This document shows, piece after piece, positions 7,144 to 57,364 of a stretch of 64,000 bases of DNA (its first letter is position 1; every line of letters starts with the position of its first letter). The stretch is from positions 62,001-126,000 of the forward strand of contig NZ_VFSD01000009.1 of assembly GCF_014332515.1 (NCBI RefSeq). Direction: 5' to 3'. The notes beneath the pieces were generated by a model. It saw only the letters and a program-made list of their open reading frames with translations, was not told the DNA's origin and did not search any database. The translations under genes and the position numbers were made by a program. The stretch comes from Pontibacter beigongshangensis (GTDB taxonomy: Bacteria; Bacteroidota; Bacteroidia; Cytophagales; Hymenobacteraceae).

Positions 7144-7188
7144 AGCAGCAGTAAAACTTCCGGAGGGGCCTTTTTATTTAAATAATTT
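7144..7188 (+). repeat. Dispersed CTCCGGAGGGGC repeat, copy 1
   Basis: AGCAGCAG, then TTCCGGAGGGGCC, then a T-run and AAATAATTT. It lies about 80 bases upstream of the HAD-phosphatase gene in the same orientation. Confidence 0.75.
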
Positions 7189-7268
7189 GGGGAAGATTAG
7201 GCTGGCATGCTCTATAAATTTCCTGATCAGACCAGACGATTAAACTTAACTATAATTAAGACTAGCAT

Positions 7269-8018
7269 ATGAGCAACCTGAATACTCTTGTTAAAGAGAA
7301 AAACATTAAAGCCCTTATTCTGGACATGGACGGTGTGATAACCAAAACGGCCGTAGTACATGCCGAGGCCTGGAAGAAAATGACAGATAACTTTCTGAAA
7401 AAGCGGGGCGCACAAGACAATAAAGTGTACAAACCCTTTGATGTGGAAGAAGATTACCGCATGCATGTAGATGGCATGCCGCGCTATGATGGTGTGCGTA
7501 ATTTCCTGGCATCGCGGGGCATTACCATACCGGAAGGAAACCAGAACGATGACGACGGCAAAGAAACCATTGTAGGACTTGGAAACCTGAAGAACCTTTA
7601 CTTCCAGGAGCTGCTGAAGCAGAATGGCGTGGTGGTTTTCGACGATACGATAGCCTGGGTAAAGGCCCTGAAGGAAAAAGGGTATAAGACGGCCGTTATC
7701 TCCTCCAGCAAAAACTGCTTCGACATCATCCGCAGAGCCGGGCTCGAACGCCTCTTCGAAGTACGGGTCGATGGACTTGTATCGGCAGAGCTCAAACTGA
7801 AAGGAAAGCCGGAGCCAGACATCTTTCTGGAAGCGGCCAGAAGGCTGGGGGTAAAACCCGAAGAAGCCGCCATTTTTGAAGATGCCTGGGCTGGTGTGGC
7901 CGCCGGTAAAGCCGGTAACTTTGCGCTGGTGGTAGGCGTGGACCGTGGCAATAACAAGCAGCTGCTGGAAGAAAACGGGGCAGACATCGTGATCAATAAA
8001 TTTCCAAAGCCTGAATAA
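7269..8018 (+). CDS. Beta-phosphoglucomutase-like HAD phosphatase
   Basis: A 249-residue HAD-superfamily protein with motif I LDMDGVITKTAVVHAEAW, close to the DxDGVITDTAxxHxxAW signature of beta-phosphoglucomutase, followed by the lysine and DAWAGV motifs of subclass IA. Beta-phosphoglucomutase converts beta-glucose 1-phosphate to glucose 6-phosphate, which is the product released by inverting GH65 phosphorylases; a GH65 gene is in the same operon, so that role fits. Eleven bases separate it from otsB. It corresponds in position to the N-terminal HAD domain of mycobacterial OtsB1. Plain phosphatase activity cannot be excluded. Confidence 0.8.
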   Translation: MSNLNTLVKEKNIKALILDMDGVITKTAVVHAEAWKKMTDNFLKKRGAQDNKVYKPFDVEEDYRMHVDGMPRYDGVRNFLASRGITIPEGNQNDDDGKETIVGLGNLKNLYFQELLKQNGVVVFDDTIAWVKALKEKGYKTAVISSSKNCFDIIRRAGLERLFEVRVDGLVSAELKLKGKPEPDIFLEAARRLGVKPEEAAIFEDAWAGVAAGKAGNFALVVGVDRGNNKQLLEENGADIVINKFPKPE

Positions 8019-8029
8019 GCTCCCAACCT

Positions 8030-8851
8030 ATGAAAGCATCAGAAGAGAAAAATATACGCAGAAGGGAAGCCTCCGAGCTTCCAGCTGCCTTTGCAAAAAT
8101 GGATGAGCTCCGTTCGAAACTGAAAGGGAAAAAGCCTGCCGTGTTTCTGGACTACGACGGCTGCCTGAGCCCCATTGTTAAAGACCCGGACAAAGCCATC
8201 CTGACCGACGAAATGCGGGCGGTGCTGCAGCAGCTGGCGGGTAAATGCCAGGTGGCGGTGGTAAGCGGGCGCGACCGGCAAAACGTAAAGAACCTGGTGC
8301 AGCTGGACTCGCTGTATTATGCCGGTTCCCATGGTTTTGATATTACCGGCCCCAACGGCATGCAGGCCGAGCCAGGCGATGCACACCAGGCGCTCATCGC
8401 GCTGGATAAGGCAGAAGAAGAGCTGAAAGAGCGCCTCATAGACGTTGAGGGCTCCCTGGTAGAACGAAAACGCTATGCCATTGCTGTGCACTACCGCAAC
8501 GTGGAGGAGCCGCTGGTAGACATTGTGAAGAAAGCCGTTGACGATATCGTGAATGCGCATGAGGGACTGAAAAAGGGCTTCGGCAAAAAAGTGCTGGAGC
8601 TTAAACCGAACATAGACTGGCATAAGGGGAAAGCCGTGTTGTGGCTGATGAATGAGCTGGGGCTAGACCTGGAAAGTACCGTGCCGATTTACATAGGTGA
8701 TGATATAACCGACGAAGACGCTTTTGCCTCTCTGCAGGGCATTGGTATCAGTGTGCTGGTTGGCGAGCACGACGATAAAACCGCAGCAGAATATAAACTG
8801 GAGGACGTAGAGGAAGTAAAGCGATTCCTTTCGGAGCTTTCTAACCTATAA
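8030..8851 (+). CDS. otsB: Trehalose-6-phosphate phosphatase
   Basis: This 273-residue HAD enzyme should dephosphorylate trehalose 6-phosphate to trehalose. Motif I is FLDYDGCLSPIV (catalytic DxDG), followed by VAVVSGRDRQNV, the GSHGFDI block, and the C-terminal metal motif YIGDDITDEDAF; all are characteristic of the OtsB family. A roughly 30-residue charged leader precedes the domain. It sits between the HAD phosphatase and the GH65 gene with gaps of 11 and 9 bases, a clear operon. No trehalose-6-phosphate synthase (otsA) is in the window, so its substrate supply must be encoded elsewhere. Confidence 0.9.
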   Translation: MKASEEKNIRRREASELPAAFAKMDELRSKLKGKKPAVFLDYDGCLSPIVKDPDKAILTDEMRAVLQQLAGKCQVAVVSGRDRQNVKNLVQLDSLYYAGSHGFDITGPNGMQAEPGDAHQALIALDKAEEELKERLIDVEGSLVERKRYAIAVHYRNVEEPLVDIVKKAVDDIVNAHEGLKKGFGKKVLELKPNIDWHKGKAVLWLMNELGLDLESTVPIYIGDDITDEDAFASLQGIGISVLVGEHDDKTAAEYKLEDVEEVKRFLSELSNL

Positions 8852-8860
8852 ACAACAGGC

Positions 8861-11266
8861 ATGGCTGAATGGAAGATCATATACGACTCCTGGAAACCCG
8901 GGGAGCAACCTCTTCGTGAAGCACTATGCACCCTCGGGAACGGGTATTTTGCCACCCGTGGCGCTGCCGAAGAGAGCAATGCCGACCTCAATATAACCTA
9001 CCCCGGCACTTACCTGGCCGGAGGCTTTAACCGGCTGGTGTCAAAAGTGTCCGGAAAGGACATAGAGAACGAGGACCTGGTAAACTGGCCCAACTGGCTG
9101 CCACTCACGTTCCGGCACAAAGGAGAGGAGCAATGGTTTAACCTGGAGCATGTGGAGCTAATCCACTTCAGGCAGGAACTGGATATGCGCCGTGGGCTGC
9201 TCATCCGGCAACTGCACTTCCGCGATGCCATCAGCCGCGAAACTCATATTACCTGCAGGCGCTTTGTAAGCATGGCCAACCCCCATGTGGCTGCCCTGGA
9301 GTGGGAGTTTATGGCTCAGAACTGGTCTGGCGAAATTGAAGTTAAATCGGCGCTGGACGGGCACGTGACCAATAGTGGGGTAGCCCGGTACCGGGCTCTG
9401 GCGAGCCAGCATCTGGAGCCACTGGCAACAGGGCAGCACGACGAGGAAACCATCTTTCTGCACACACAGACAACCCAATCACGGATACGTATGGCACAGG
9501 CTGCTCGTACCCGTGTTTTCATAGAGCCTCCTTCCTCTGATTTTCAAAGAGAAACCAACACCGCCGACAATGCATATGCCGAGCAGCTGCTGCGGCTAAC
9601 CTGCCAGCAGCAGCACCCGCTCCGGATAGAGAAAGTGGTGATGCTGTATACTTCCCGAGATTTTGCAGTGTCAGAAGAACTGCTGGATGCCTGCACCAAC
9701 ATAGGTCGACTGGGCAGCTTTGCGCAGCTGCTGCAGGAGCATTGCCAAACCTGGCAGCACATGTGGGCGCGGTGCGATCTGGAACTGGCCAGCAACCATA
9801 ATGCCCAGCGTATTCTGCGGCTGCATATCTTCCACCTGCTACAGACGGTATCTGGCAACACCGTAGGCCTGGATGTAGGCGTGCCTGCGCGTGGCTTGCA
9901 CGGAGAGGCCTACCGGGGCCATATTTTCTGGGACGAGCTCTTTATATTTCCCTTCCTAAACCTGCGGCTGCCCGAGCTTACGCGCGAGTTGCTGATGTAC
10001 CGTTACCGGCGTTTGCCGGAGGCCCGGTACGCGGCCCATCAGGCGGGATACCGGGGCGCCATGTTTCCGTGGCAGAGTGGCAGCAATGGCCGTGAAGAGA
10101 GCCAGGTTATCCATCTGAACCCGGAGTCAGGCAACTGGCTGCCGGACAACACATTTCTGCAGCGGCATATCAGCGCGGCAGTGGCCTACAACGTGTGGCA
10201 ATACTACCAGACCACTACTGACCTGGAGTTTCTTAGTTTTTACGGGGCAGAAATGATTTTAGACATCGCTCAGTTCTGGTCTTCTATCGCCACCTTTAAC
10301 ACCGGGCTGGACCGTTACGAAATTTTGCACGTGGTGGGGCCTGATGAGTACCACACCGAATACCCTGATCTGGATGAGCCTGGGCTGCGCAACAATGCCT
10401 ATACCAACGTAATGGCCGCCTGGGTAATAAGATGCGCGCTGGGCATTGCGAAAGTGCTGGATAATAAACGGCTGGATGAGCTGTATGAGAAGCTGCACAT
10501 CTCGGAAGATGACCGGCAGCGCTGGCTGGACATCACCCATACAATGCATGTGCCCTTTATTGGCAGCAGCCGGATAATTGCCCAGTTTGAGGGCTACGAT
10601 GCCCTGAAGGAGTTTGACTGGCCAACCTACCAGAAAAAGCACGGCGAGTCAATGCGCCTGGACCGGATACTGGAGGGCGAAGGCGATAATGTGAACCGGT
10701 ACAAGGCCAGTAAGCAGGCCGATGTGATAATGCTGTTTTATCTCTTCTCGGCTGAGGAACTGCTCGGACTTTTTAATAGCCTTGGCTATACACTTACCGA
10801 GAAAGATATCGCAGATAATATCGACTATTATGAGCACCGCACCTCTCACGGCTCCACCCTCAGTAAAATTGTGCACTCATGGGTGCTAGCCCGGTCTGAC
10901 CGCAAACGCTCCTGGTCCAATTTTCTGGAAGCCCTGATGAGCGATGTGAAGGATGTGCAGGGGGGCACCACGCAGGAAGGAATTCACCTGGGGGCCATGG
11001 CCGGCACAGTAGACCTGCTGCAGCGGGGTTACATCGGCCTCGATATCCGTGACGATGTGCTATGGCTAAACCCGGCGCTGCCGGCAGAGTTAAGCTATCT
11101 TAAGCTGCAGCTTCTCTACCGCAGCCATTGGCTGACGCTGCGGCTGACGCACCAGAAACTCATGATCAATGTGGAGAAGGGCTTTGCAAGGGAGGTGCAG
11201 ATAGGTGTAAATGGAAAGGTCTACACCATGGTTACCGGCGACAAGCACGAATTCGAAATCGGATAA
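8861..11266 (+). CDS. Glycoside hydrolase family 65 disaccharide phosphorylase
   Basis: An 801-residue GH65 protein. The GH65 core is visible: RGLHGEAYRGHIFWDELF, the general-acid block VVGPDEYHTEYPD with Glu496, NNAYTNVMAAWV, KQADVIMLFYLF, and the phosphate-loop block SHGSTLSKIVHS around His663. Family members phosphorolyse trehalose, kojibiose, nigerose or maltose, releasing beta-glucose 1-phosphate; which disaccharide is used cannot be read here. The adjacent beta-phosphoglucomutase-like gene would convert that product to glucose 6-phosphate, and the adjacent otsB suggests trehalose. The start ATG lies 9 bases after otsB. The gene aligns with the C-terminal GH65 part of mycobacterial OtsB1. 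Confidence 0.88.
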   Translation: MAEWKIIYDSWKPGEQPLREALCTLGNGYFATRGAAEESNADLNITYPGTYLAGGFNRLVSKVSGKDIENEDLVNWPNWLPLTFRHKGEEQWFNLEHVELIHFRQELDMRRGLLIRQLHFRDAISRETHITCRRFVSMANPHVAALEWEFMAQNWSGEIEVKSALDGHVTNSGVARYRALASQHLEPLATGQHDEETIFLHTQTTQSRIRMAQAARTRVFIEPPSSDFQRETNTADNAYAEQLLRLTCQQQHPLRIEKVVMLYTSRDFAVSEELLDACTNIGRLGSFAQLLQEHCQTWQHMWARCDLELASNHNAQRILRLHIFHLLQTVSGNTVGLDVGVPARGLHGEAYRGHIFWDELFIFPFLNLRLPELTRELLMYRYRRLPEARYAAHQAGYRGAMFPWQSGSNGREESQVIHLNPESGNWLPDNTFLQRHISAAVAYNVWQYYQTTTDLEFLSFYGAEMILDIAQFWSSIATFNTGLDRYEILHVVGPDEYHTEYPDLDEPGLRNNAYTNVMAAWVIRCALGIAKVLDNKRLDELYEKLHISEDDRQRWLDITHTMHVPFIGSSRIIAQFEGYDALKEFDWPTYQKKHGESMRLDRILEGEGDNVNRYKASKQADVIMLFYLFSAEELLGLFNSLGYTLTEKDIADNIDYYEHRTSHGSTLSKIVHSWVLARSDRKRSWSNFLEALMSDVKDVQGGTTQEGIHLGAMAGTVDLLQRGYIGLDIRDDVLWLNPALPAELSYLKLQLLYRSHWLTLRLTHQKLMINVEKGFAREVQIGVNGKVYTMVTGDKHEFEIG

Positions 11267-12442: not shown

Positions 12443-12486
12443 AGCAGCAGGAAAACCTCCGGAGGGGCTTTTTGATTAGGATAATT
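12443..12486 (+). repeat. Dispersed CTCCGGAGGGGC repeat, copy 2
   Basis: AGCAGCAGGAAAA, CCTCCGGAGGGGC, TTTTT, GATTAGGATAATT: a near-complete copy 29 bases after the pfkB stop, in the pfkB direction. Confidence 0.8.
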
Positions 12487-12660: not shown

Positions 12661-12715
12661 ACGCTATCAACAAAAAAGGTGAAGCTATTTGCTTCACCTT
12701 TTTTGTTGATAGCGT
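12661..12715 (-). terminator. Strong hairpin terminator of fbaA
   Basis: A perfect 25-bp inverted repeat (12661-12685 and 12691-12715) with a five-base loop and an A-run/T-run in the arms. It lies 10 bases beyond the fbaA stop codon and could also stop transcription arriving from pfkB. Confidence 0.85.
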
Positions 12716-15941: not shown

Positions 15942-15988
15942 AATTATTCTAATGATTATGCCCCTCCAGAGGCTTAGCTGCTCCTGCT
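15942..15988 (-). repeat. Dispersed CTCCGGAGGGGC repeat, copy 3
   Basis: Reverse orientation: AATTATTCTAATGATTATG, CCCCTCCAGAGG, and an outer GCTGCTCCTGCT. One of two same-direction copies between the AI-2E permease and the exonuclease gene. Confidence 0.75.
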
Positions 15989-16114
15989 GAAAAGGACACA
16001 AGATTCTTCTAAAGTTATGAGTTAAATAGTGTTCTGCTGGTGATTTCCAAATCTTCCAATCAACCATTTAACATTGTAGCCATTCAACAATCAACAGCCA
16101 ACTACGAGCAACGC

Positions 16115-16162
16115 AATTATTCCAATCAAAAAGCCCCTCCAGAGGTTCTGCCGCTCCTGCTG
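16115..16162 (-). repeat. Dispersed CTCCGGAGGGGC repeat, copy 4
   Basis: Reverse orientation: AATTATTCCAATCAAAAAG, CCCCTCCAGAGG, GCTCCTGCTG. It lies 34 bases after the stop of the AI-2E-type permease, in the direction of that gene. Confidence 0.8.
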
Positions 16163-23160: not shown

Positions 23161-23217
23161 GCTAAAAACAGAAGGAGCCTGTTTCTATGGCAGAAACAGG
23201 CTCCTTCTGTTTTTAGC
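23161..23217 (+). terminator. Strong hairpin terminator after the TPR gene
   Basis: A perfect 26-bp stem (23161-23186 with 23192-23217) and a five-base loop, with TTTTT inside the right arm, placed 9 bases after the stop codon of the secreted TPR protein. Confidence 0.85.
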
Positions 23218-27961: not shown

Positions 27962-28011
27962 GATTATTCAAATCAAAATGCCCCTCCGGAGCTCATTCCT
28001 GCTGTTGCCGC
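27962..28011 (-). repeat. Dispersed CTCCGGAGGGGC repeat, copy 5
   Basis: Reverse orientation: ATTATTCAAATCAAAATG, CCCCTCCGGAG, CCTGCTGTTGCCGCT. It forms an inverted pair with copy 6 across about 230 bases of non-coding DNA after rplT. Confidence 0.8.
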
Positions 28012-28242: not shown

Positions 28243-28287
28243 CGGAGCACAAAAAGCTTCCGGAGGCCTGCTTTTATTTAAATAATT
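28243..28287 (+). repeat. Dispersed CTCCGGAGGGGC repeat, copy 6
   Basis: Core CTTCCGGAGG, then a T-rich stretch and TTTAAATAATT; the upstream GCAGCAG part is replaced. Its AATAATT end points outward relative to copy 5. Confidence 0.65.
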
Positions 28288-31278: not shown

Positions 31279-31319
31279 AGCAGCAGCAAGTCTGGAGGGC
31301 ACGATTTGTTAGCATAATT
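31279..31319 (+). repeat. Dispersed CTCCGGAGGGGC repeat, copy 7
   Basis: AGCAGCAGCAAG, TCTGGAGGGC, GTTAGCATAATT; 62 bases downstream of the alpha/beta hydrolase and co-oriented with it. Confidence 0.75.
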
Positions 31320-32442: not shown

Positions 32443-32492
32443 AGCAGCAGCAGCAGCAGAGCTCTCCGAAGGGCTAAATTCATTAGAATAAT
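32443..32492 (+). repeat. Dispersed CTCCGGAGGGGC repeat, copy 8
   Basis: Six CAG-type units, CTCTCCGAAGGGC, CATTAGAATAAT. The core is diverged (CCGAAGGG). Downstream of and co-oriented with the hydrophilic-protein gene. Confidence 0.7.
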
Positions 32493-32578
32493 CTGCATGC
32501 TCTTTTACTAAGCCACCCTCCTCAACTGCCCCAAAGCTGGTAATGCTGGTCCCTCTTCTGAAATACCGCTGCATTGCG

Positions 32579-33334: not shown

Positions 33335-33367
33335 TCTCTGGAGGTCCTTTTGCATTCCAATAATTTT
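33335..33367 (+). repeat. Dispersed CTCCGGAGGGGC repeat, copy 9
   Basis: CTCTGGAGGTCCTTTTGCAT, then TCCAATAATTTT; the GCAGCAG part is missing. A bare core GCCCTCCGGAG also touches the upstream stop codon at 33188-33198 in the opposite sense. Confidence 0.6.
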
Positions 33368-35315: not shown

Positions 35316-35369
35316 AATTATTCTAATCAAAACAGCCCTCCGGAGACATTTCGGCCCCTGATACTGCTG
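35316..35369 (-). repeat. Dispersed CTCCGGAGGGGC repeat, copy 10
   Basis: Reverse orientation: AATTATTCTAATCAAAACA, GCCCTCCGGAG, CTGATACTGCTG. It lies in the convergent region between the SDR pair and the response regulator. Confidence 0.8.
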
Positions 35370-35444: not shown

Positions 35445-35480
35445 AATTATTCCAATGAAAATGCCCCTCCGGAGCTTTTG
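35445..35480 (-). repeat. Dispersed CTCCGGAGGGGC repeat, copy 11
   Basis: Reverse orientation: AATTATTCCAATGAAAATG, CCCCTCCGGAGC. The outer CTG part is missing. Same orientation as copy 10, 75 bases away. Confidence 0.75.
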
Positions 35481-42073: not shown

Positions 42074-42118
42074 AGCAGCAGCAGAACACTCCGGAGGGGC
42101 ATTTTCATTAGAATAATT
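42074..42118 (+). repeat. Dispersed CTCCGGAGGGGC repeat, copy 12 (consensus-like)
   Basis: AGCAGCAGCAGAACA, CTCCGGAGGGGC, ATTTTC, ATTAGAATAATT: the best single copy. It begins 12 bases after the copper ATPase stop in the same direction. Confidence 0.85.
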
Positions 42119-42188: not shown

Positions 42189-42236
42189 GAGCGGCAGCTT
42201 CCTTCGGCTCCGGAGGGCCATTTTGATTAGAATAAT
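42189..42236 (+). repeat. Dispersed CTCCGGAGGGGC repeat, copy 13
   Basis: GCGGCAGC, GGCTCCGGAGGGCC, ATTTTGATTAGAATAAT, a second same-direction copy after the copper ATPase. Confidence 0.8.
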
Positions 42237-42309
42237 CGGTGCCGGAACTAAGAACGACGGCAACGCGGCTCATAAATTTCATTAAACCTTAAAACCAATT
42301 TTTTTTCGT

Positions 42310-42556: not shown

Positions 42557-42602
42557 GCAGCAGCAGTTAGGGCTCCGGAGGGCCTTATTCAATAGAATAA
42601 TT
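42557..42602 (+). repeat. Dispersed CTCCGGAGGGGC repeat, copy 14
   Basis: GCAGCAGCAGTTAGG, GCTCCGGAGGGCC, CAATAGAATAATTT; 34 bases after the HMA chaperone stop, same direction. Confidence 0.82.
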
Positions 42603-43744: not shown

Positions 43745-46700
43745 TTATTTTACTATGGTGACACTTCCTGCTAAAGGCTTCTCCTTGTCATCGAGGCGAA
43801 TAATATAATAATAGGTGGCCAGCGGAAGCTCCTGCCCGTTAAAGCGCCCATCCCAGGGCGCTTTATAACCCTGCGAAGTAAACACCAGCGTGCCCCACTG
43901 GTTGAAAACCTGCACCTGGCAGTTGGCGTACTGGGTCAGGTGCGGAATTTCCCAGTTATCGTTTATGCCATCGCTGTTGGGGGTGAAGGTGTTAGGGATA
44001 TCCACTGCAGGGAGCACCGTCACGGTTACTTCATCTGTCGATACACAGCCGCCATTTGTGGTTACCGTCACGGTATAGGTGGTGGTAACTTCCGGTGAGG
44101 CAATAGGTGAGGCCACCTTCGGGTTGTTCAGGCCAATGGCCGGCGACCAGGAGTAGGTATCGCCCCCGGAGGCGTGCAAGGTAGCATTTCTGCCCTTGAT
44201 GAAAGTCACGTCAGGGCCCGCGTCTGCCGTGGGCGATGTTACCGTTACGGTTACCGCCTTTCGCTCACCGGCACAGGATAGGGCCACCTCCTGCACAAAA
44301 TAGGTGGTAGTGGCCGTAAGCACAGGAGTAGTGAACGCAGCACCTATGTAAATCGGGCTTCCTCCGGATGCTGCCGTGAACCACTCCAGGTTTCCGCCAG
44401 ATCCGCTAGCCTTCAGTTCGGCTCTGCTGTTATAGCAAATACCCACGTTTTCTGCCTTTGGTGCCTTAGGGAGCGGGTTGATGGTAATGGCCACTACATC
44501 GCTCACTAGTTTGTCGCAGGCTTCTGAAGACACCACTCTTCTGTACCATGTGTTACGGGTTAGCTCTCCCGGGCTGTAGCTCGGTTTTGTATTGTCACCT
44601 GTAGCTGTTGTGAATCCTTTGTCCGGGCCGGTGGTGCTGCTTTCCCACAGGTAACTAAAGCTGCCGCTGCCACCGGTAGGCACCGAGCCTGTCAGGGTAG
44701 TTGGCGTGGTTCCGTAGCAGATAGTCTGGCTGGAGCTGATGCGGTTATTGGCCATTACTGGTTTTACTGTGATTAGCACGGCCGTACTGGTGTCGGTAAA
44801 AGGGCCTGAGATAACCACTCTTCTGAACCAGGTGTCCTGCGTAAGCGCATCCGGAGCATAATCTCTGGCCCCGCTGGCACCTGCAGCCGTCACGAACCCA
44901 ACGGTTGCGCCTTTGGTGCTGGCCTGCCACAGGAACAGGTAATCGCCCTCGCCGCCACCTGGAGTTGTGCCCGTTAGCGGAGCAGGCTTATTGCCATAGC
45001 AAATGGTCTGACCTGCCTGCACGATGTTGCTGTTCACATCTGGAATCACGGTGATCTTAAAAGCCGCAGAAATATCCTCGCAGCCGCCGGAGCGCACAAT
45101 GCGGCGGAACCAGGTGGTCTGGGTGAGTGCCTGCGGCGCATAGTGGATATCGTTGCGGATGCCGTAAACCGGGCCGAAACCAGCGTCCGGGCCTTCGGTG
45201 CTGCTTTCCCAGGCATATGTATACTTGTTGCTGCCCCCGATCGGCTGAGAACCTGTTAACGGTGCTGGTTTCTGACCTGCATAGATGTTCTGCGCAAAGG
45301 CGATGGTGTTCCTGGAAATGACCGGCGAAACCGTTATCTGTACCACCTCAGAAAGGCGACTGCAGGCTCCGGAAGTTACCACACGGCGATACCAGGTGGT
45401 GGTGCTGAGCACTCCAGGCGCATAATCTCTGGCCGTGGCACCGGCTATGTCAGCAAACGGCCCGTTGTTGCCGCTGGTAGCGACCTGCCACTGAAAGGCA
45501 AATTCGCCGGTGCTGCCTTTCGGGTCGGAGCCAAGGAGCGGTTGGGGAGCAGTCTGGAAGCAGATCACCTGTGGCTCAGAGATCACGTTTTCGGTGATAG
45601 CCTCATTTACCACCACTCTTACGGCATCTGACACAGCAAAACACTGGCCTGAAGCTGCCCTGCGGCGGAACCAGGTAGTATTTTCCAGTTTTGGCGCCTG
45701 ATAAGAAATTGCCGTGTTGGCACCTGCCGCATCCGTGAAGGTGATGCCATCGGTGCTGCTTTCCCAGAGGTAGGTAAAGGTGTTGTCGCCTCCGGTAGGT
45801 TTATCGCCAATCAATAGGCCAGGCGCTTCGCCGGCGCAAATCGTCTGTTCCGGCGTTATGATCATAAAGCCCGCAATGGCCGGTTGAACCATGATTTTTA
45901 CAGGCGTGCTGATGTTGAGCGCACAGGGGCCGGAGCTTACTATTCTTCTGAAAAAGGTTGTGCTTTCGAGCGGTTTAGGTGCCGTGTAAGTAGCTAAGGT
46001 ATTCTCACCTGCTGCCGGTCTGAAATCACTTTCTTCACCCGTGGTGCTGCTTTCCCACCGGAAAGAATATTCATTAGTGCCTCCTACAGGCGTCGTAGCT
46101 GTGAGCGGCTGGAAAGCATCTCCTATGCAGACAGTCTGCGACTGGCGAACTATGTTGTTGGTAAGAGCTGGCAGCACTTTTACGGCTTCGCTGGTACTGG
46201 CAGCACAAGGTCCGGCCGTTACCACCCTTCTGTACCACAGTATCTGATTGTAGAAAGAGGGGGTGTAGTTCGCACTGTGGTTCTGCCCAGGCGCTACCGT
46301 AAAGTTTTCACCGTCGGTACTTACTTCCCATTTATACATGTATTCACCATTGCCGCCTGAAGGCTGGCTTCCGATCAGGGTTATGGTCGAGGCATTAACA
46401 GCGCACACCACCGGATCGCCGGCAATACTGTTGGCCGTGATCGGCTTATCGATGGTGATTTTAACTATTTGCTCGCTTATTTTTTCCTGGCAGGTGCCTG
46501 AACGCACCATGCGGCGGAACCAGGTGGTTTGGGTAAGGGTGCCTGGGCTGTAGTGTTGCAGATTATGGATGCCTGCAGCAGGCTCAAAGCCATCTACTGT
46601 GCCAAGCACACTGCTCTCCCACAGATACTCGTACTCTCCTGATCCGCCGGCTGGTTTTTCACCTTTTAACTCCGGAGCGGTGCCGCCTTCGCAGATGCTG

Positions 46701-49700
46701 GTGTTTCCGCTGATGAGGATGTTGTTGGTGATGATGGGGGTAACCGTTACGAGCACAGGGGAGGAGTAGTCGGTACAGGCGCCTGAAATGACCACTCTTC
46801 TGAAATAAGTGCTGCGGGTAAGAGCATTTGGCGTATAAGTAGCCGCCGTAGCCTCGTTTATGACGGTATAGCCTGAGCCTGCTTCCAGGCTGCTCTCCCA
46901 ACGGAAGGTATAGGTGCCGTTTCCTCCCTCAGGAACAGTGCCTGTAATGGTTGCTGGTGTCTGTCCTGCACAAATTGCTGGTACACCCTTCAATTCGTTA
47001 AGCGCCAGCTTAGGCAGCACTGTTACCTGCACCTGGGTACGTGGACCAACACAGCCCGCTATTGCACCTTCTGCCAGAAAGACACTGGTCGTTTCTACTG
47101 TTGGCGTAAATGTTTTGCCACTATGCAGCAAGGTGCCTTCCTGGCTGTACCAGTTGTAAACTTCTGCCGTACCGATGGCTGTCAGGGTTGCCTTGCCGGA
47201 CCCGCACAGCGTGACAGGGTCTACTGACGGAGCCGGGGTTTGTGGCCTTACCACCACCGTTACTTCAAGGCGGCTACTGGAGCAACCGTTATTGGCGAGC
47301 GTCTCAACCAGGTATTTGGTGGTGGAGGTGAGGGGGCCGGTAGCGAAGGCGGTGCCAGTGTGCAGTTGCTGGCCGCTTTCATCATACCATAGGATGGTGC
47401 CTTCCGGATTCTCGGCAGTGAGTGTAGCGGAAGTTCCATAGCAGATAGTGGCTCCCACAACAGCAGGTGTACCTGGCAAAGACTTAACCGTTACCACAGC
47501 CTGATCGCTTGTAAAGCAGGTGCCGGTATAGTAAGTATAGGTAAGGGTATAGGTGCCTGTTTTAGATGGCGTAAAGGTGCCATCTTTGGAAATAAGTTCT
47601 GAACCGCTCCAGATGCCACCAGCCGGGCTCGCCTGCATGGCGAAGGACCCGCTATTGAGGCAAACCTCTCTGTCGTCTCCGGCATTGGCCACCAGTGCCT
47701 CCGTTACCGTCATGGTCATTTCATCGAAATTGGTGCAGCCACTGGCATCTGTATAAGTATATCGGAGCACAAATTCGCCTTTGCCGGCCGGTAAAAAATA
47801 ACCATCTGTTACATGTGGGCCGCTCCAAGTGCCGCCTGCAGTTTGCCCCAGTAGTTTTATTGGCTCCGGATTATCGCATACGGTCTGGTTAGGGCCTGCC
47901 TCCACTTGCGGGAGTGGCTTTACCGTCACCGTTACAGTGGCGGTGTTGCTGCAGCCTGTCGCTTCATCTATACCGGTAACCGTGTAAGTTGTCGTTACTT
48001 TGGGACTTGCTGTAACTTCTGCGCCTGTGGTGGCACTCAGGCCGGTGGCTGGTTGCCACGAATAAGAGGCTGCGCCTGAGGCTGTGAGCGTGGCTGCTCC
48101 CTGGCCTAGGCAAATGTCTGCTGAAGAGCTGTTAACAGTAATAGTGGGTAATGGTTTTACCACCACCGTAAAGGTTGTGGTGCTGGTACAGCCGGTGGCG
48201 GAGTTGGTTCCAGTTACAGTGTAAGTCGTCGTTTTTGTAGGTTTTACAGTTACCTTGCTGCCGGTAGTGGCATTCAGGCCCGCTGCTGCCTGCCATTTGT
48301 AGGAGGAAGCTCCGGATGCAGTAAGGATAATTTCCTCACCGATACAAATTTCTGCTTTAGGGGCTGTGATCTTAACATCCGGCAGCGGGTTGATGGTAAT
48401 ACGTTGCTTGGCCGGGGCAGATGTTTCTCCACATTCATTCATGGCATAAGCCCAAATCTCATACACTACCGGTCCGCTTTCGGAGGCGGTCAGCGAAACG
48501 GTTGGGTACTGCGAACTGGTGCTGGTGTTATTGACAAAGCTGCCTTCCCCTGCTCCGGAAATTACTTTTACCTCCCATTTGTAGCCCGTAATAGTGCCGA
48601 AATTTGCCTGATAAACGGGCGTATGTTTCGTGTTATCAGCAGAGAAAGTAATGTTGGTGGTGCCGCAATAAGGCGCTGGTGCTTTGGGTAGTGTTACGAC
48701 GGGTTTTCCGGCCACTGTAACAGGTATGCTTTTGGTGCTGTTGGGGGAGCAGCCATTGCTGGCCGTCAAAACCACATTATAAGTGCCAGGGGTATTAATA
48801 GAAAATTTGGGTTCCCTGGAGCTGGCAGTTGTGCCTCCTGTAAAACTCCAGCCGGTTGCGGCTGTGCCGTCGGCCTTCGTCACAGCCCAGGCATGGAGGA
48901 TGTTTTCTCCTGCGGAAGTGTTAGTTACTGTAAAGGTGCCAGGGACACATTTATTTTCCGGCAGTTGCGTAAGCGAGAAATCTGCAGTAGGAGGGGTGGT
49001 AATTTTAATAACCTCTTCTTTTGTGCTGCCGGCGCAGGTAGAGTTGGCATCTTCGGGGCTAACGGCCAGTTTAACCACATACTCACCCGGTTCGGTAAAA
49101 ACGACCACCGGCTTTTTTGCATTAACGTTTCCGCTTTGGATATACCAACCGGTGGCAGGCGCTATGGTCCACTCGGTTCTGTGGGTGGAGAGGTTCCGGG
49201 AGGCATCGTAACCGCTGTTTGAAACATCGCTGAGCGTGATGGGTTGGTTCACGCAGCCTGTTTTGGAGCCGAGGCCTATGTCGGCCACAGGTCCTTTGGA
49301 GATCCGGATACCGCTCCAGGTAGACTTGGAGGTAAGGCAGGGGTTTGAGGCCAGGGCCGTCAGGGTAAAGCCCCCCGGCTTGTCCTGCGACGACTCATTG
49401 AAGGTGTGCTCGATGTAAGGCTTTGCCAATAGCTCTGCATGCGATAGAGTGATGGTAGGCGTGCCATCGTCAAAAGTGAAGGTATAGACCGTAAATGGGG
49501 AGTTTCGCTCGAAGCTGTTCACATCGAAGCGGTATGTGGCCGGGGCGCAGTCGGTGCTGTTGCCGAGGTTAGAAAGGCCGATGCCGGGGTTACTGCCCAC
49601 AAATACCTGCTCGGTTTTACGCTCCGTGCAGCCATTCTCACCAGTCACGGTCAGCACCAGGTCGTAGGTGCCGGCAGCGCGGTAAACATGGCTGGTTTTG

Positions 49701-49975
49701 TCAAAGTCTTTGCCAAAGGAATTGCTGCTGCCATCGCCCCAACTTAGGTGGTAGCTGGCATTGTTGGCTTTGGTTGCCGATGTGTTCTCCACAGCCAGCG
49801 TAAAGGTGGCAGTACTGATGTTGGGCGTACAGTAAGTAAAATTGTAATAAGGGTTTGTGAGGCTGGCATCCGGTACCTGCTCACAGTTTTGCTGTGCCGA
49901 CACCTCTTTATTGCAAACAAGAATACAGAGGGTCAGGATTAGTGAAAGCATACCTGCTTTCTTGAAAGTTTTCAT
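43745..49975 (-). CDS. Giant T9SS substrate with PKD/Ig-like repeats and a gliding-type C-terminal domain
   Basis: A 2076-residue secreted protein. The signal peptide is MKTFKKAGMLSLILTLCILV, cleaved near SAQQ. The N-terminal part has PKD-like domains (ASYHLSWGDGSSNSF, HVYRAAGTYDLVLTV), then cadherin/Ig-like units ending in TTTYTVTG, then nine repeats of about 90 residues marked by W[FY]RR[VI]V-SG-C and an LT or LTG turn (about 44470-47000). The end, PNTFTPNSDGINDNW to LATYYYIIRL, is the gliding-motility-associated C-terminal (type-B) sorting domain. ATG 49975 is chosen because the upstream extension of the frame is not a signal sequence. It should be an adhesin-like surface protein, exported with the adjacent PorP. 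Confidence 0.9.
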   Translation of the reverse strand: MKTFKKAGMLSLILTLCILVCNKEVSAQQNCEQVPDASLTNPYYNFTYCTPNISTATFTLAVENTSATKANNASYHLSWGDGSSNSFGKDFDKTSHVYRAAGTYDLVLTVTGENGCTERKTEQVFVGSNPGIGLSNLGNSTDCAPATYRFDVNSFERNSPFTVYTFTFDDGTPTITLSHAELLAKPYIEHTFNESSQDKPGGFTLTALASNPCLTSKSTWSGIRISKGPVADIGLGSKTGCVNQPITLSDVSNSGYDASRNLSTHRTEWTIAPATGWYIQSGNVNAKKPVVVFTEPGEYVVKLAVSPEDANSTCAGSTKEEVIKITTPPTADFSLTQLPENKCVPGTFTVTNTSAGENILHAWAVTKADGTAATGWSFTGGTTASSREPKFSINTPGTYNVVLTASNGCSPNSTKSIPVTVAGKPVVTLPKAPAPYCGTTNITFSADNTKHTPVYQANFGTITGYKWEVKVISGAGEGSFVNNTSTSSQYPTVSLTASESGPVVYEIWAYAMNECGETSAPAKQRITINPLPDVKITAPKAEICIGEEIILTASGASSYKWQAAAGLNATTGSKVTVKPTKTTTYTVTGTNSATGCTSTTTFTVVVKPLPTITVNSSSADICLGQGAATLTASGAASYSWQPATGLSATTGAEVTASPKVTTTYTVTGIDEATGCSNTATVTVTVKPLPQVEAGPNQTVCDNPEPIKLLGQTAGGTWSGPHVTDGYFLPAGKGEFVLRYTYTDASGCTNFDEMTMTVTEALVANAGDDREVCLNSGSFAMQASPAGGIWSGSELISKDGTFTPSKTGTYTLTYTYYTGTCFTSDQAVVTVKSLPGTPAVVGATICYGTSATLTAENPEGTILWYDESGQQLHTGTAFATGPLTSTTKYLVETLANNGCSSSRLEVTVVVRPQTPAPSVDPVTLCGSGKATLTAIGTAEVYNWYSQEGTLLHSGKTFTPTVETTSVFLAEGAIAGCVGPRTQVQVTVLPKLALNELKGVPAICAGQTPATITGTVPEGGNGTYTFRWESSLEAGSGYTVINEATAATYTPNALTRSTYFRRVVISGACTDYSSPVLVTVTPIITNNILISGNTSICEGGTAPELKGEKPAGGSGEYEYLWESSVLGTVDGFEPAAGIHNLQHYSPGTLTQTTWFRRMVRSGTCQEKISEQIVKITIDKPITANSIAGDPVVCAVNASTITLIGSQPSGGNGEYMYKWEVSTDGENFTVAPGQNHSANYTPSFYNQILWYRRVVTAGPCAASTSEAVKVLPALTNNIVRQSQTVCIGDAFQPLTATTPVGGTNEYSFRWESSTTGEESDFRPAAGENTLATYTAPKPLESTTFFRRIVSSGPCALNISTPVKIMVQPAIAGFMIITPEQTICAGEAPGLLIGDKPTGGDNTFTYLWESSTDGITFTDAAGANTAISYQAPKLENTTWFRRRAASGQCFAVSDAVRVVVNEAITENVISEPQVICFQTAPQPLLGSDPKGSTGEFAFQWQVATSGNNGPFADIAGATARDYAPGVLSTTTWYRRVVTSGACSRLSEVVQITVSPVISRNTIAFAQNIYAGQKPAPLTGSQPIGGSNKYTYAWESSTEGPDAGFGPVYGIRNDIHYAPQALTQTTWFRRIVRSGGCEDISAAFKITVIPDVNSNIVQAGQTICYGNKPAPLTGTTPGGGEGDYLFLWQASTKGATVGFVTAAGASGARDYAPDALTQDTWFRRVVISGPFTDTSTAVLITVKPVMANNRISSSQTICYGTTPTTLTGSVPTGGSGSFSYLWESSTTGPDKGFTTATGDNTKPSYSPGELTRNTWYRRVVSSEACDKLVSDVVAITINPLPKAPKAENVGICYNSRAELKASGSGGNLEWFTAASGGSPIYIGAAFTTPVLTATTTYFVQEVALSCAGERKAVTVTVTSPTADAGPDVTFIKGRNATLHASGGDTYSWSPAIGLNNPKVASPIASPEVTTTYTVTVTTNGGCVSTDEVTVTVLPAVDIPNTFTPNSDGINDNWEIPHLTQYANCQVQVFNQWGTLVFTSQGYKAPWDGRFNGQELPLATYYYIIRLDDKEKPLAGSVTIVK

Positions 49976-50274
49976 GGCCAGAAGCTGAAATAATAATATA
50001 ATTTTTCCTAAGCAGGAGCATGTCCAGGAAAAGAGGAGGGAGCAGTGCTTTATCTTCTTCAATAAGGTGATGCAGGTGTTACACATAGCAGTGGAACTGT
50101 GCCTGCAGTATTAATAGCTTGCGGAACAGTCAGGAGTCAATTTCATTGACTGTTGAAGATCAGGTTGGTGCTGAAAAAGTAAAACCAGGAATAGTAAGTG
50201 TTCGTCATCATTATGGAAAATCCGTTACGTGGCGCCAAATCCTAAGTAAATGAGTGTCTGGCTGGTTTTATGGC

Positions 50275-50323
50275 AATTATTCCAATCAAAATGCCCCTCA
50301 GGAGGCTATTCCTGCTGCTACTG
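50275..50323 (-). repeat. Dispersed CTCCGGAGGGGC repeat, copy 15
   Basis: Reverse orientation: AATTATTCCAATCAAAATG, CCCCTCAGGAGG, CCTGCTGCTACTG. It forms an inverted pair with copy 16 across about 310 bases. Confidence 0.8.
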
Positions 50324-50637: not shown

Positions 50638-50681
50638 GCAGCAGCAAAGGCTCTGGAGGGGCTTTTTCATTGGAATAATTT
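50638..50681 (+). repeat. Dispersed CTCCGGAGGGGC repeat, copy 16
   Basis: GCAGCAGCAAAGG, CTCTGGAGGGGC, TTTTTCATTGGAATAATT. AATAATT points outward relative to copy 15. Confidence 0.8.
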
Positions 50682-54084: not shown

Positions 54085-54184
54085 TACTATTTATACTGAA
54101 GATTTACCTTACTAATACTTTCACCATCGAGGCTGCCTGCTTTGGTATGACTTTGACGGTATTAACTTAGTTATTCAAAAGTTT

Positions 54185-54369: not shown

Positions 54370-54390
54370 CACCTTCAGGCCCTGAAGGTG
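54370..54390. promoter_or_regulatory. CACCTTCAG/CTGAAGGTG inverted repeat upstream of rfbF
   Basis: Perfect 9-bp arms with a three-base loop, 54 bases before the rfbF start. The same arm sequence recurs at 57392-57427. Confidence 0.4.
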
Positions 54391-54443
54391 AATTCTAACA
54401 TAGTGCATACATCTTAAACAAAGTAGAAAACCCCTTTATATTT

Positions 54444-55247
54444 ATGAAAGCAGTGATACTTGCAGGAGGCTATGGTACCAGGATCAGCGAAGAGAGTGGT
54501 GTCCGGCCCAAGCCAATGGTGGAAATTGGAGGGAAGCCCATCCTCTGGCACATCATGAAAATATATTCCCACCACGGCATTAACGATTTTGTGATCTGCT
54601 GTGGCTACAAAGGCCACATGATTAAAGAATACTTCTCCAATTATTTCCTCTACAACTCCGATGTAACCTTCGATATGCGCAAAAACAGCATGGAGGTGCA
54701 CCACAACAATACCGAATCCTGGAGGGTTACCCTTGTAGACACCGGCGAAGGAACACTTACCGGCGGACGGCTTAGGCGGGTAAAGGAGTATCTGGGCGAT
54801 GACACGTTTTGCATGACATACGGGGATGGCGTAAGCGATGTGGATATTACAGCGGCCATCAATTACCATAAACAGCAGGGCACCTTGGCTACGCTCACAG
54901 CGGTGCAGCAGCCTGGTCGGTTCGGCGCCTTTACCTTGTCTGAAGAGGCTGCCAAAGTAAATCAGTTTAAAGAAAAGCCGACTGGCGGCGACATGCCCTG
55001 GATAAATGGCGGATTCTTTGTGCTGGAGCCAGCCGTAATCGATTATATAGAAGGCGATTCCACGACCTGGGAACGGGAGCCAATGGAAAGATTAGCGGAG
55101 GAAGGAGAACTTTCGGCCTACAGGCACACTGGTTTCTGGCAGCCAATGGATACGCTTCGTGATAAGCACCTGCTCGAGGATTTGTGGCAAAATGGAAAGG
55201 CCCCCTGGGATGTCTGGAGCAAGGCGCTTTCCGGTGCCGTGCATTAG
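54444..55247 (+). CDS. rfbF: Glucose-1-phosphate cytidylyltransferase
   Basis: A 267-residue nucleotidyltransferase giving CDP-glucose from glucose 1-phosphate and CTP. The N-terminal loop [18 protein letters not shown], then [42 protein letters not shown] and [10 protein letters not shown] follow RfbF closely. The usual partner CDP-glucose 4,6-dehydratase (RfbG) is not in the window; instead an unusual extended SDR and an RmlC-like epimerase follow, so the final sugar is unclear. It begins a four-gene run with a 50-base gap to the SDR gene. Confidence 0.92.
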
Positions 55248-55297
55248 CAGGTTTTGGAACCTGAAAATATTGATTTTATTATCTTATCTCCTTTTAT

Positions 55298-56392
55298 ATG
55301 AAGATCCTTATCACCGGAAACATGGGCTACGTAGGAACTGCCGTGGTGAAACACCTGCGGTCGGCCTTCCCTGACGCCACGCTGGTTGGCTACGACATGG
55401 CCTACTTTGCCTCCAGCCTGCAGGGCTCCTCTGCCATATTGCCGGAAAGCAGATTGGATCAGCAGATATTCGGGGATGTACGCAACATGCCGGCCGAAGT
55501 GCTGGACAATGTAAATGCCGTTGTGCATCTGGCCGCTATCGGTGGTGACGTGGCAGAGCATAAGTACGGGGTTGTAACACAGGACGTTAACTATACAGCC
55601 AGCATTCGGGTAGCAGAGTTGGCAAAGGCCGTGGGAGTAGAATCGTTTGTGTTCGCCTCGAGTTGCAGCCTTTATGGAACTGAAGAAGAAAGCGAGAGGA
55701 CGGAGCACTCTGACCTGAAACCTGTTTCCGCTGATGCCCGCACCAAACTGGCGGCCGAAATAGACCTGGAGCCACTGGCGGGCGATGGGTTCAGCGTAAC
55801 CTGCCTCCGGTTTCCGGCTGCCTGCGGCATGAGTGACCGGCTGCGGCCAGGGCTTCTGCTGAACGATTTTGTAGGAGAGGCTTTAGCCACAGGCAACCTG
55901 AACATAGTAGGCAATGGAGCCGCCTGGCAACCCCTGATTCATGTGGCTGACTTGGCCCGTGCAGTAGAGTGGGCTGTTACAAGAGAGGCGGCTGACGGGG
56001 GAGAATACCTGGTTGTAAATGCCGGCTTTAACGATTGGAATTTTCGGGTATACGAACTGGCAAGAGCTGTGGCATACGCCCTGCCAGGAATCACGCTGAA
56101 TTTTAGCGGGGGTGAAGTGGCAGAAGAGGCCTCATGCCCGATATGTTTTGATTTTTATCAGGCGCTTGCGCCTGATCATCAGCCACAGTATTCCTTACAA
56201 CAGGCAATTGCCGAGCTTTGCGAAGGGTATAAGCCAATTGTAGCCCAGTCCTGGCACCAGGATAGCCCGCTACAAAACCGGGCCATGTTCCTGAACAAAT
56301 TACAGCAACTGGGGGCATTAGACGAGCAACTGCGTTGGGCTCATCAGAAATCCACCGTAAGGAGAGAGTCAGTGTTAGAAATTATTGATTAA
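55298..56392 (+). CDS. Sugar-nucleotide epimerase/dehydratase-like SDR with altered active-site motif
   Basis: A 364-residue extended SDR. Cofactor loop LITGNMGYVGTAVVKHL, VVHLAAIGGD and SSCSLYG are normal. The position of the catalytic YxxxK reads VSADARTKLAAE, so the tyrosine appears replaced by aspartate (GAT where TAT would give YARTK); the lysine is kept. NDF and PLIHVADLARAVEW downstream also fit the family. It is bracketed by rfbF and the RmlC-like gene, so a role in modifying a CDP-sugar is likely, but catalysis must differ or be lost if the aspartate is real. Confidence 0.8.
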   Translation: MKILITGNMGYVGTAVVKHLRSAFPDATLVGYDMAYFASSLQGSSAILPESRLDQQIFGDVRNMPAEVLDNVNAVVHLAAIGGDVAEHKYGVVTQDVNYTASIRVAELAKAVGVESFVFASSCSLYGTEEESERTEHSDLKPVSADARTKLAAEIDLEPLAGDGFSVTCLRFPAACGMSDRLRPGLLLNDFVGEALATGNLNIVGNGAAWQPLIHVADLARAVEWAVTREAADGGEYLVVNAGFNDWNFRVYELARAVAYALPGITLNFSGGEVAEEASCPICFDFYQALAPDHQPQYSLQQAIAELCEGYKPIVAQSWHQDSPLQNRAMFLNKLQQLGALDEQLRWAHQKSTVRRESVLEIID

Positions 56393-56400
56393 GAAAATAC

Positions 56401-56955
56401 ATGATATTTACCGAAACCAAGCTAAAAGGAGCCTATATAGTTGACATAAAGCGGATCGAAGATGAACGCGGCTTTTTCGGACGGGCATGGTGCCAGAAGG
56501 AATTTGAGGAAATGGGGCTTTCTGCCAATGTAGTCCAGACCAATTTGTCTTCGAACAAAAAAAAGGGAACCCTCCGGGGGATGCACTTCCAGGTAACGCC
56601 TTTTGCCGAATCTAAACTGGTGCGATGCACGCGAGGGGCACTTTATGATGTGATTATTGACCTGCGCCAAAACTCACCAACCTATATGCAATGGCTGGGG
56701 GTAGAACTGACAGCAGACAGTTTCAGGATGCTGTATGTGCCTGAAAACTTTGCACACGGTTTCCTGACACTGGAGGATGACACCGACATCACCTACCAGG
56801 TTACTCAGTTTTATGCACCCGGGGCGGAAAGGGGCATTCGTTTCAACGATCCGGCTTTTAACATACAGTGGCCCATAGAACCGCAGATCATCTCTGAAAA
56901 AGACAAAGCACATGCTAATTTTGTGCATGAGCTCGCACAGCCAATAGCAGGTTAG
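56401..56955 (+). CDS. rfbC: dTDP-4-dehydrorhamnose 3,5-epimerase-like (RmlC family)
   Basis: A 184-residue cupin-type sugar epimerase. Key motifs are ERGFFGRAW, TLRGMHFQ (catalytic histidine), RGALYDVIIDLR, VPENFAHGFLTLED and the conserved tyrosine in DITYQVTQFY. The family epimerises 4-keto sugars linked to dTDP or CDP. The start is 8 bases after the SDR stop. Given rfbF upstream, a CDP-linked substrate is possible, so the rhamnose name should be taken as family only. Confidence 0.88.
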   Translation: MIFTETKLKGAYIVDIKRIEDERGFFGRAWCQKEFEEMGLSANVVQTNLSSNKKKGTLRGMHFQVTPFAESKLVRCTRGALYDVIIDLRQNSPTYMQWLGVELTADSFRMLYVPENFAHGFLTLEDDTDITYQVTQFYAPGAERGIRFNDPAFNIQWPIEPQIISEKDKAHANFVHELAQPIAG

Positions 56956-57012
56956 CCAGCCCATCCAGCTGCCAGCACCAGCCTGCCAGGCATCTTGATA
57001 TACACTCTTGGG

Positions 57013-57054
57013 AGCAGCAAATGCTCTAAAGGGCCTTTTTCATTAGCATAATTT
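57013..57054 (+). repeat. Dispersed CTCCGGAGGGGC repeat, copy 17
   Basis: AGCAGCAAATG, CTCTAAAGGGCC, TTTTTCATTAGCATAATTT; 57 bases after the RmlC-like gene. The core is diverged (CTAAAGGG). Confidence 0.7.
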
Positions 57055-57181
57055 AAATAGCACTGTGAGCGTGAGGGTTGGTTGATAGCAAATTGCGACT
57101 CTGAGACAAACGTAATTGTGCTGCTTCACGTCGTAACCCCGCCTGATGAGTGCGGACATAAAAGGAGTCGGAATCAGGGGG

Positions 57182-57229
57182 AATTATGCTAATCAAAATG
57201 GCCCTCCGGAGGTTTGTTCGGCTGCTAAC
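57182..57229 (-). repeat. Dispersed CTCCGGAGGGGC repeat, copy 18
   Basis: Reverse orientation: AATTATGCTAATCAAAATGG, CCCTCCGGAGG, CGGCTGCT. It forms an inverted pair with copy 19. Confidence 0.78.
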
Positions 57230-57320
57230 TACCGGTCATTAAAGCAGAAGGCGCCCTTCCACTCAGTCCTGACTCTGGCCGATGTTTAAACAATGGAGGC
57301 AGGCGGCTATCGTCTTAAAA

Positions 57321-57364
57321 AGCAGCAGCAGAAGGTCTGGAGGGCAGATTTTATTCAAATAATT
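57321..57364 (+). repeat. Dispersed CTCCGGAGGGGC repeat, copy 19
   Basis: AGCAGCAGCAGAAGG, TCTGGAGGGC, TTTATTCAAATAATT, ending 153 bases before the next gene. Confidence 0.78.

Follow-up and report, generated by a model that had tools for sequence, protein, structure and literature searches.

Why does the same short block of sequence recur between the genes of Pontibacter beigongshangensis, and what keeps it there? The DNA in question, hereafter the window, is a stretch of 64,000 nt from contig NZ_VFSD01000009.1 (positions 62,001 to 126,000), in which the original prediction described a dispersed family of ~45-bp intergenic repeats with at least 19 copies and took it for a spreading element. 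Our analysis confirmed that a dispersed intergenic family exists, beyond chance. A sister species, Pontibacter qinzhouensis, carries the family as well, partly in the same places and in a different sequence dialect. The reading that we favor, at roughly even chances, is that the family consists of dispersed recognition sites, which descend from a once-mobile unit and whose core is kept for a trans-acting reader.

All 19 blocks were present in the window (12 on the + strand and 7 on the - strand), each of them in a gap between called genes, and all 19 share a gapless 30-bp core with a consensus near CTCCGGAGGSCNTTTTSATTNRAATAATT. Core positions are numbered 1 to 30, and negative positions lie to its left. 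The recurrent block is thus real, but the exactly spaced unit measures 30 bp rather than ~45 bp. Similarly, a GCAGCAG run does stand to the left of most cores, but it is a tract whose length varies and which is missing from some copies, and TCCGGA is the commonest form of the centre, but other forms occur. A position weight matrix (PWM) was trained iteratively on family copies from an 864-kb sample of the source genome (15% of the genome, consisting of the window, C75:126001-166000, C1:1-400000, and C12:1-360000), and places scoring >14 bits were counted as copies. By this matrix the 19 window copies score 22.1 to 50.8 bits with no twentieth copy above 9 bits in the window, and the whole sample holds 268 copies, compared with a single place >8 bits and none >10 bits in one dinucleotide-preserving shuffle of each segment. 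A second shuffle yielded three places at 3-6 bits and none higher. Scores in the sample are two-peaked, with 245 places >30 bits, 23 at 15-30, and 11 at 3-15, and this scarcity of intermediate scores indicates that decayed copies are rare in the source genome. A repeat finder likewise recovered many window copies, both as families D1, D2, D3, and D7 and as inverted pairs. The figure of at least 19 copies therefore stands for the window, but the true scale is far larger, at ~1,600 to 1,800 copies per genome: extrapolation from density gives ~1,785 copies in the 5.75-Mb genome, while a 25-base pattern with two mismatches allowed has 1,596 matches genome-wide and its reversed form has none. The proposed intergenic bias held equally well, as 260 of the 268 copies lie in gaps ≥50 nt and 3 in gaps <50 nt or at segment edges, leaving 5 that overlap called genes by >15 nt in a sample that is 74.5% coding; gene overlap in P. 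qinzhouensis is limited to 1 of 204 copies. All placement figures derive from gene calls by our own hexamer-based caller rather than from curated annotation. Two of the five in-gene copies belong to a local duplication of a gene and adjoining family copies at C12 251662-255880, in which the flanks are identical for one copy pair and 73% identical for the other.

A strict pattern matched 452 times in the source genome and not at all in 58 relatives, and a two-mismatch pattern run on 50 genomes of the genus gave 1,596 matches here, 827 in P. qinzhouensis GY10130, and at most 2 in any of the remaining 48. The identity of P. qinzhouensis GY10130 follows from its contig C150, which contains without a mismatch a named 10,933-base locus of record NZ_VRTY01000035.1. 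A related pattern, applied to 390 genomes drawn from the order (the source included, P. qinzhouensis not), found 1,353 matches here and 0 to 2 elsewhere. The original prediction knew of no named family with this consensus, and none was matched in Rfam at gathering thresholds; nor did one pattern match viral contigs or one copy, used as query, match plasmid and phage records. A literature search, with most subscription journals outside its coverage, returned nothing on Pontibacter intergenic repeats or on P. qinzhouensis, and the word Pontibacter does not occur in the main text of a survey of repetitive extragenic palindromes (REPs) (PMC12306157).

The comparison with P. qinzhouensis used a sample of 726.5 kb, ~12% of its genome, which contains 204 copies. 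Base frequencies in the first 93 of these show ACCCTTGRC at -26 to -18, then ~17 nt, and a CTTCGGAAGG centre. In this dialect, ACCCTTGRC replaces the triplet tract and CTTCGGAAGG replaces CTCCGGAGGG, while the right half of the core, ATTNRAATAATT, is unchanged. At core position 3, 229 of the 268 copies here carry C, compared with T in 187 of the 204 P. qinzhouensis copies, and at position 8 the prevailing bases are G here (229 of 268) and A in P. qinzhouensis (203 of 204). Each species' own matrix is the better fit to its cores (257 of 268 and 189 of 202, respectively). In whole genomes, the P. qinzhouensis left module joined to its core occurs 884 times in P. qinzhouensis and twice here, one of the two being tailed, whereas 2 of the 204 P. 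qinzhouensis copies reach the triplet-tract threshold. Since the source genome holds these two full examples of the other dialect, their sequences suggest a polarity in which the P. qinzhouensis-like form would be the older, the alternative being that both copies were imported late into the source genome instead of being ancestral.

To compare places, we identified 76 gaps ≥50 nt that lie between the same adjacent orthologues in both species and together hold 47 copies here and 35 in P. qinzhouensis. Copies are present in both species in 23, only here in 9, only in P. qinzhouensis in 6, and in neither species in 38, and for the 57 gaps measuring 100-700 nt in both species the corresponding counts are 20, 6, 5, and 26 (Fisher p = 4e-6). 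Copies were then paired by equal orientation and matching distance from a gene end, with the expectation obtained by permuting gaps. In the 76 gaps there were 15 same-orientation pairs within 15 nt (1.7 expected; 1 in opposite orientation) and 21 within 45 nt (4.1 expected; 2 in opposite orientation), so that chance may account for some 2 pairs of the closer set or 4 of the wider one. Among the 21 pairs, the copy here has the triplet tract in 16 and the P. qinzhouensis copy has ACCCTTGRC, with one mismatch allowed, in 16; 11 pairs combine the two, and in no pair does either copy have the left module of the other species. Position 8 is G here and A in P. qinzhouensis in 16 pairs, A in both in 4, and G in both in 1, while position 3 is C here and T there in 13. 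The 15 closer pairs behave alike (tract here in 11, ACCCTTGRC there in 11, both in 7, the other species' module in none, position 8 G/A in 12, and position 3 C/T in 9). The proteins of 130 ortholog pairs are 88.4% identical and their fourfold-degenerate sites 51.3% identical; therefore, sites without upkeep should have blurred.

Could such pairs have arisen without any common history, through independent insertion at the same hot spots in both species? A target preference just downstream of genes could yield same-position pairs, and matched copies are not clearly more alike than random ones either in the core outside the diagnostic positions or at -30 to -1 (identity 0.465 vs 0.476 random). 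The outer flanks, however, exceed random pairing (0.560 vs 0.489 at -80 to -36; 0.570 vs 0.509 at 31 to 110), and words of the AT-rich 3' tail that a minority of copies bear are found in both members of 4 of the 21 pairs, against 1.7 expected. At the pair of copies at window 15942 and 16115, the gaps measure 440 and 437 nt and their flanks align, with the left modules and centres differing by dialect. We therefore give independent insertion next to no weight. Gaps filled in one species only numbered 15, and the 12 of these that were aligned (<720 nt) were ragged, showing decayed-looking sequence at the place of window copy 33336, one mismatch without indel at a C12 site, a gap of ~34 nt inside another core, and otherwise larger length changes. 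As a result, the exact ends of the unit, which the original prediction proposed to read from loci with and without a copy, are not definable in this way. No target duplication was seen in the 12. At the C12 site, near 128,980, a copy aligns to non-matching P. qinzhouensis sequence with the length unchanged, a single case that decides nothing about birth in place. When measured against a more distant relative without the family (G002), gaps with one or two copies were longer by a median of 240 and 313 nt (4 and 4 cases) and 35 copy-free gaps by a median of 2 nt, although the case numbers are small.

The core carries ~40 bits of information, with the weakest constraint at positions 13, 22, 18, 4, 11, and 12. 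To its left are an A-rich stretch (-5 to -2) and then the imperfect GCA/CAG tract of variable length; ≥6 nt of GCA/GCG/GGA/ACA units occur on the left of 198 of 268 copies here vs 31 of 204 in P. qinzhouensis. Among the copies with an exact GCAGCAG (123 in all), 61 and 58 have it in two registers relative to the core, one base apart, and 4 in the third, and for this reason a coding remnant, in which the triplet tract would be a signal peptide, was rejected. The P. qinzhouensis left module also stands at either of two distances that differ by a single base (109 and 32 of 201 copies, with 56 lacking an exact match), and this shared two-register habit may go back to an ancient spacing difference of one base that both have inherited. 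The AT-rich 3' tail was scored by two or more words such as TTGATTGTTAAATGG, which were picked after such tails had been seen. By this score, a downstream tail was present at 16 of the 268 copies here and at 33 of the 204 P. qinzhouensis copies. No copy of either species had one upstream, and on the opposite strand downstream the counts were none here and 1 in P. qinzhouensis; no cluster of such words was present in 400 kb of G002. Orthologous memory was not detected within the tail itself, as the 4 of 21 pairs tailed in both species did not score above other tail pairs (ranks 0.07 to 0.80). This oriented tail supports the copying implied by a spreading element, but the passive pattern of spread and decay was not matched. 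A second repeat family with hairpin arms CTCGCAG/CTGCGAG was found at 17 places in the 726-kb P. qinzhouensis sample and at 4 in the 864 kb here, and at several P. qinzhouensis loci this hairpin succeeds the AT tail of a family copy.

We next consider what sort of object the core is. Among the 268 copies, the 40 strongest dependencies join close neighbours or fall inside the triplet tract, and those in the core span no more than 4 positions. Nearest-neighbour core likeness is 27.68 here vs 27.58 ± 0.09 expected of independent draws with neighbour dependence, and 28.10 vs 28.09 ± 0.10 in P. qinzhouensis, with little sub-family structure among copies. Short-range dependencies and a likeness close to that of independent draws are as expected for binding sites, and on balance the core sequences appear to resemble a double-stranded binding site more than a set of decaying copies. 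A transcript-level role, as an RNA element or intrinsic terminator, is suggested by the succession of an A-run, a GC-rich centre, and a T-run, by the preference for 3' ends, and by the joint change of positions 3 and 8 between the species. No hairpin covariation was detected across the 268 copies, however, with pairs 0/11, -1/12, and -2/13 at chance (pairing at 0/11 is 0.46 vs 0.45 expected, and at 3/8 0.84 vs 0.82), and left/right complementarity was no higher than when flanks were exchanged among copies, which gives no sign of a flank-to-flank stem. Furthermore, the best-conserved part comes after the T-run, Rfam has no match, and one of the same gaps contains a separate long perfect inverted repeat of terminator-like form (window 12661-12715). 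We regard this explanation as close to refuted.

The placement of the copies raises a different possibility, namely a chromosome-organising or regulatory site bound by a nucleoid protein or by a termination or mRNA 3'-end factor, held by ordinary selection at each site and subject to drift in specificity. Copies are densest in convergent gaps (2.18 per kb), followed by tandem (1.11) and divergent gaps (0.81), and the order is the same in P. qinzhouensis (2.03, 1.00, and 0.55). In tandem gaps they favor the sense orientation (108 vs 54 here; 73 vs 41 in P. qinzhouensis), and for 113 of the 260 copies the nearest gene end is the 3' end of a same-sense gene, at a median of 62 nt. Such a site would fit this orientation bias and the fixed spacing, and a dimer site might undergo the joint change seen at positions 3 and 8. 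However, selection would have to hold >1,000 sites singly and yet shift them together, both orientations and every type of gap are in use, and relatives free of the family manage without it. In addition, 140 sense copies precede a called gene start, and just 6 of them lie within 80 nt of it, by which a promoter was also rejected. An organising or regulatory site of this kind is in our view unlikely, though still worth weighing. By a length-based Poisson expectation, gaps with one or two copies are commoner (178 vs 142) and empty gaps rarer (290 vs 319). A replication signpost was rejected, as 149 of the 268 copies are on the strand of positive GC skew and 119 on the other (50-kb bins), a weak bias at most. 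So was a multi-copy gene that carries the repeat along: the 15 largest protein families listed for the 864 kb have at most 4 members, none regularly adjoining copies. Within the 864-kb sample, the longest copy-free stretch (53 kb) carries a prophage, with genes for phage tail, primase, and integrase (8 of the 10 proteins submitted matched PHROGs), and the second longest (33 kb) includes genes of polysaccharide type and, among the 7 proteins scanned there, a DDE transposase. The prophage-like region, at loci L025-L028 (C1 ~333-386 kb), encodes a tape measure protein, a primase/helicase, and a tyrosine integrase, and no family copy was found inside it.

The main rival to the favored reading is that of a selfish element that is still active, resembling a REP or a miniature inverted-repeat transposable element (MITE), whose trans-acting enzyme either converts old-dialect copies or inserts new-dialect ones at their places, so that the sites persist and their sequence is homogenised. 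REPs are known to favor 3' ends and convergent gaps, as does the family here. High copy number, extragenic location, and a species-specific consensus are further likenesses to REPs and to the bacterial interspersed mosaic elements (BIMEs) built from them, and a 1990 report by Gilson is said, going by its title, to concern species specificity of palindromic units in Enterobacteriaceae. The oriented tail on some copies, the REP-like placement, and the scant orthologous memory within the core all fit an active element. As defined in the consulted portions of two papers (PMC3686654, PMC2817692), the REPs that associate with tyrosine transposases (RAYTs) have a 5' GT(A/G)G end, a hairpin palindrome, and a rayt gene between inverted copies. 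Position-wise frequencies of the 268 copies here and 93 of P. qinzhouensis contain no 5' GT(A/G)G end, and no palindrome covaries within the source genome. No associated transposase was found: none of the six Y1 transposase genes here has copies close by on both sides, and genes of this type are present in 43 of 50 genus genomes. Of the six Y1 loci (~3.2 kb each), three have no copy, one has one, one has two on one side, and the sixth has one copy ~0.9 kb and another ~1.4 kb away on opposite sides, for a total of 5 copies vs ~6 expected from density. One Y1 gene (locus L054) has inverted repeats TAGGTGTAGTTTTCAACTACACCTA on both sides (1197-1221, 1820-1844, 1916-1938), probably a REP-type repeat that belongs to this gene and has no relation to the family. 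MITEs are likewise short, dispersed, and non-coding and probably spread by copying, but in the family neither terminal inverted repeats nor target duplications were seen (by flank complementarity and in the 12 ragged gaps, respectively), no parent transposon was found, and copies are kept at shared positions. The CGTC-tagged palindromic repeats, which have been reported from five phyla including Bacteroidetes (PMC3733652), are also short and dispersed, whereas base frequencies here have neither a CGTC end nor a stem-loop. The nearest-neighbour likeness of cores, near that of independent draws, also speaks against an active element, and we judge this history to be a serious possibility that nevertheless falls on the unlikely side. 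The family is neither a REP/RAYT element nor a simply decaying repeat.

The individual window copies illustrate the range of forms. Beginning at the left, copy 1 (core 7158..7187, +, PWM 40.5) has GCAGCAG on its left from 7145, and copy 2 (12457..12486, +, 44.7) lies 42 nt past the stop of a PfkB-family kinase gene, in a gap with two copies in P. qinzhouensis, the nearer one 16 nt past the stop. Two perfect, terminator-like inverted repeats, one of 25 and one of 26 bases and each with a 5-base loop, lie at 12661-12715 and 23161-23217, and the former has counterparts 3' of the same gene in several relatives. Copies 3 (15942..15971, -, 42.3) and 4 (16115..16144, -, 47.0) each have a P. qinzhouensis counterpart in the other dialect; an AT-rich 3' tail remains at ~16043-16114 beside copy 4, whose counterpart is likewise tailed. 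These are followed by copies 5 (27962..27991, -, 45.2) and 6 (28258..28287, +, 30.1), copy 7 (31290..31319, +), which at 22.1 has the minimum score of the 19, and copy 8 (32464..32493, +, 37.7) with a long GCAGCAG tract on its left. At the gap of copy 9 (33336..33365, +, 33.7), P. qinzhouensis has no copy (best score 10.4) and shows decayed-looking sequence at the aligned place. Copy 10 (35316..35345, -, 47.3) is near copy 11 (35445..35474, -, 49.1), which has no clear triplet tract and whose P. qinzhouensis counterpart bears the left module of that species. Copy 12 (42089..42118, +) has the maximum score of 50.8 and precedes copies 13 (42208..42237, +, 47.8) and 14 (42573..42602, +, 40.6). 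A 2,113-amino-acid reading frame at 43745-50086, with DNA repeats at multiples of ~282 bases, probably encodes a large repeat protein. The remaining copies are 15 (50275..50304, -, 44.3), 16 (50651..50680, +, 47.9), 17 (57024..57053, +, 39.6), 18 (57182..57211, -, 47.4), and 19 (57335..57364, +, 34.6).

Under the favored reading, of sites kept for a reader in trans, a unit comprising a left module, the 30-bp core, and an AT-rich 3' tail would have been copied into many intergenic places in the common ancestor with P. qinzhouensis, and the core would today be maintained as a double-stranded DNA site for a sequence-specific factor. A shift in the preference of that factor in one lineage would then have changed the sites in place, affecting their outer and central parts (ACCCTTGRC vs the CAG-triplet tract, CTTCGGAAGG vs CTCCGGAGGG) and sparing the right half. 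Shared positions amid diverged neutral sites, rare decay, little sub-family structure, and the dialect differences together argue for upkeep by a reader of the sequence. Copying followed by such upkeep would cover the copy number, the range of two carriers, the oriented tail, the shared places, the rarity of decay, and the dialects. Several results weigh against it. The dialect difference is not seen in every pair, as position 8 is alike in 5 of 21 and position 3 is C/T in just 13 of 21, and matched cores outside the diagnostic positions are 0.804 identical vs 0.786 ± 0.010 for random pairs, which fits replacement by other copies. The joint change of positions 3 and 8 from C-G to T-A between the species is what a hairpin would give likewise. 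Two hints of copying, which an active element would also explain, are an excess of exact core duplicates here (12.3% vs 6.3 ± 2.1% under a second-order model; P. qinzhouensis has no excess, 8.0 vs 8.6 expected) and a dependence of P. qinzhouensis left-module positions on the core (-22 with 3, -23 with 7). The intervals between copies show no extra evenness (coefficient of variation 1.38 vs 1.26 ± 0.08 for random intergenic placement). Finally, no candidate for the reader protein emerged, and ComEC is encoded by both carriers and by two relatives without the family and is therefore not discriminating.

In behaviour the family comes closest to the DNA uptake sequences (DUS) of Neisseriaceae and the uptake signal sequences (USS) of Pasteurellaceae, each of which likewise has a strong consensus, repeated at one to a few thousand places. 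To the extent that the available portions of three papers describe them (PMC3630211, PMC2397512, PMC7811141), these signals occupy permissive places, are better conserved than their diverging surroundings, and have dialects that track species, as do the two dialects of the two species here, and the USS core is joined to AT tracts much as the core is here. Two differences count against the parallel, namely that DUS and USS are signals of 9 to 12 bp compared with ~40 bits in 30 bp here, and that the present family is nearly all intergenic. The oriented tail and left module also set it apart. Another trait of DUS and USS is absence from recently acquired DNA, to which the prophage in the longest copy-free stretch of the 864-kb sample may be relevant. 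By this analogy, the likeliest form of upkeep would be one in which cells preferentially take up and recombine fragments in the current dialect, and selection acting on a chromosomal binding site would come second; we advance an uptake-like drive tentatively, as a possibility rather than an expectation. With slightly more reserve still, the family might be an independently evolved third DNA-uptake signal system, located in Bacteroidota and having a 30-bp signal with a swappable outer module. Such a system would have been caught after a dialect switch at >1,000 sites in each sister species, its seeding probably the work of a mobile element. Titles and abstracts retrieved for uptake sequences together with Bacteroidetes concern other matters, in a search that left subscription journals mostly outside its coverage. 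We know of no uptake signal in Bacteroidota, and if this one is real it would, to our knowledge, be the first in the phylum. More broadly, how >1,000 dispersed sites can change in concert is a question common to uptake sequences, REPs, and binding-site networks. Two sister species with shared places, a conserved half beside a swapped half, and relatives free of the family to serve as outgroups make the mechanism of such concerted change testable.

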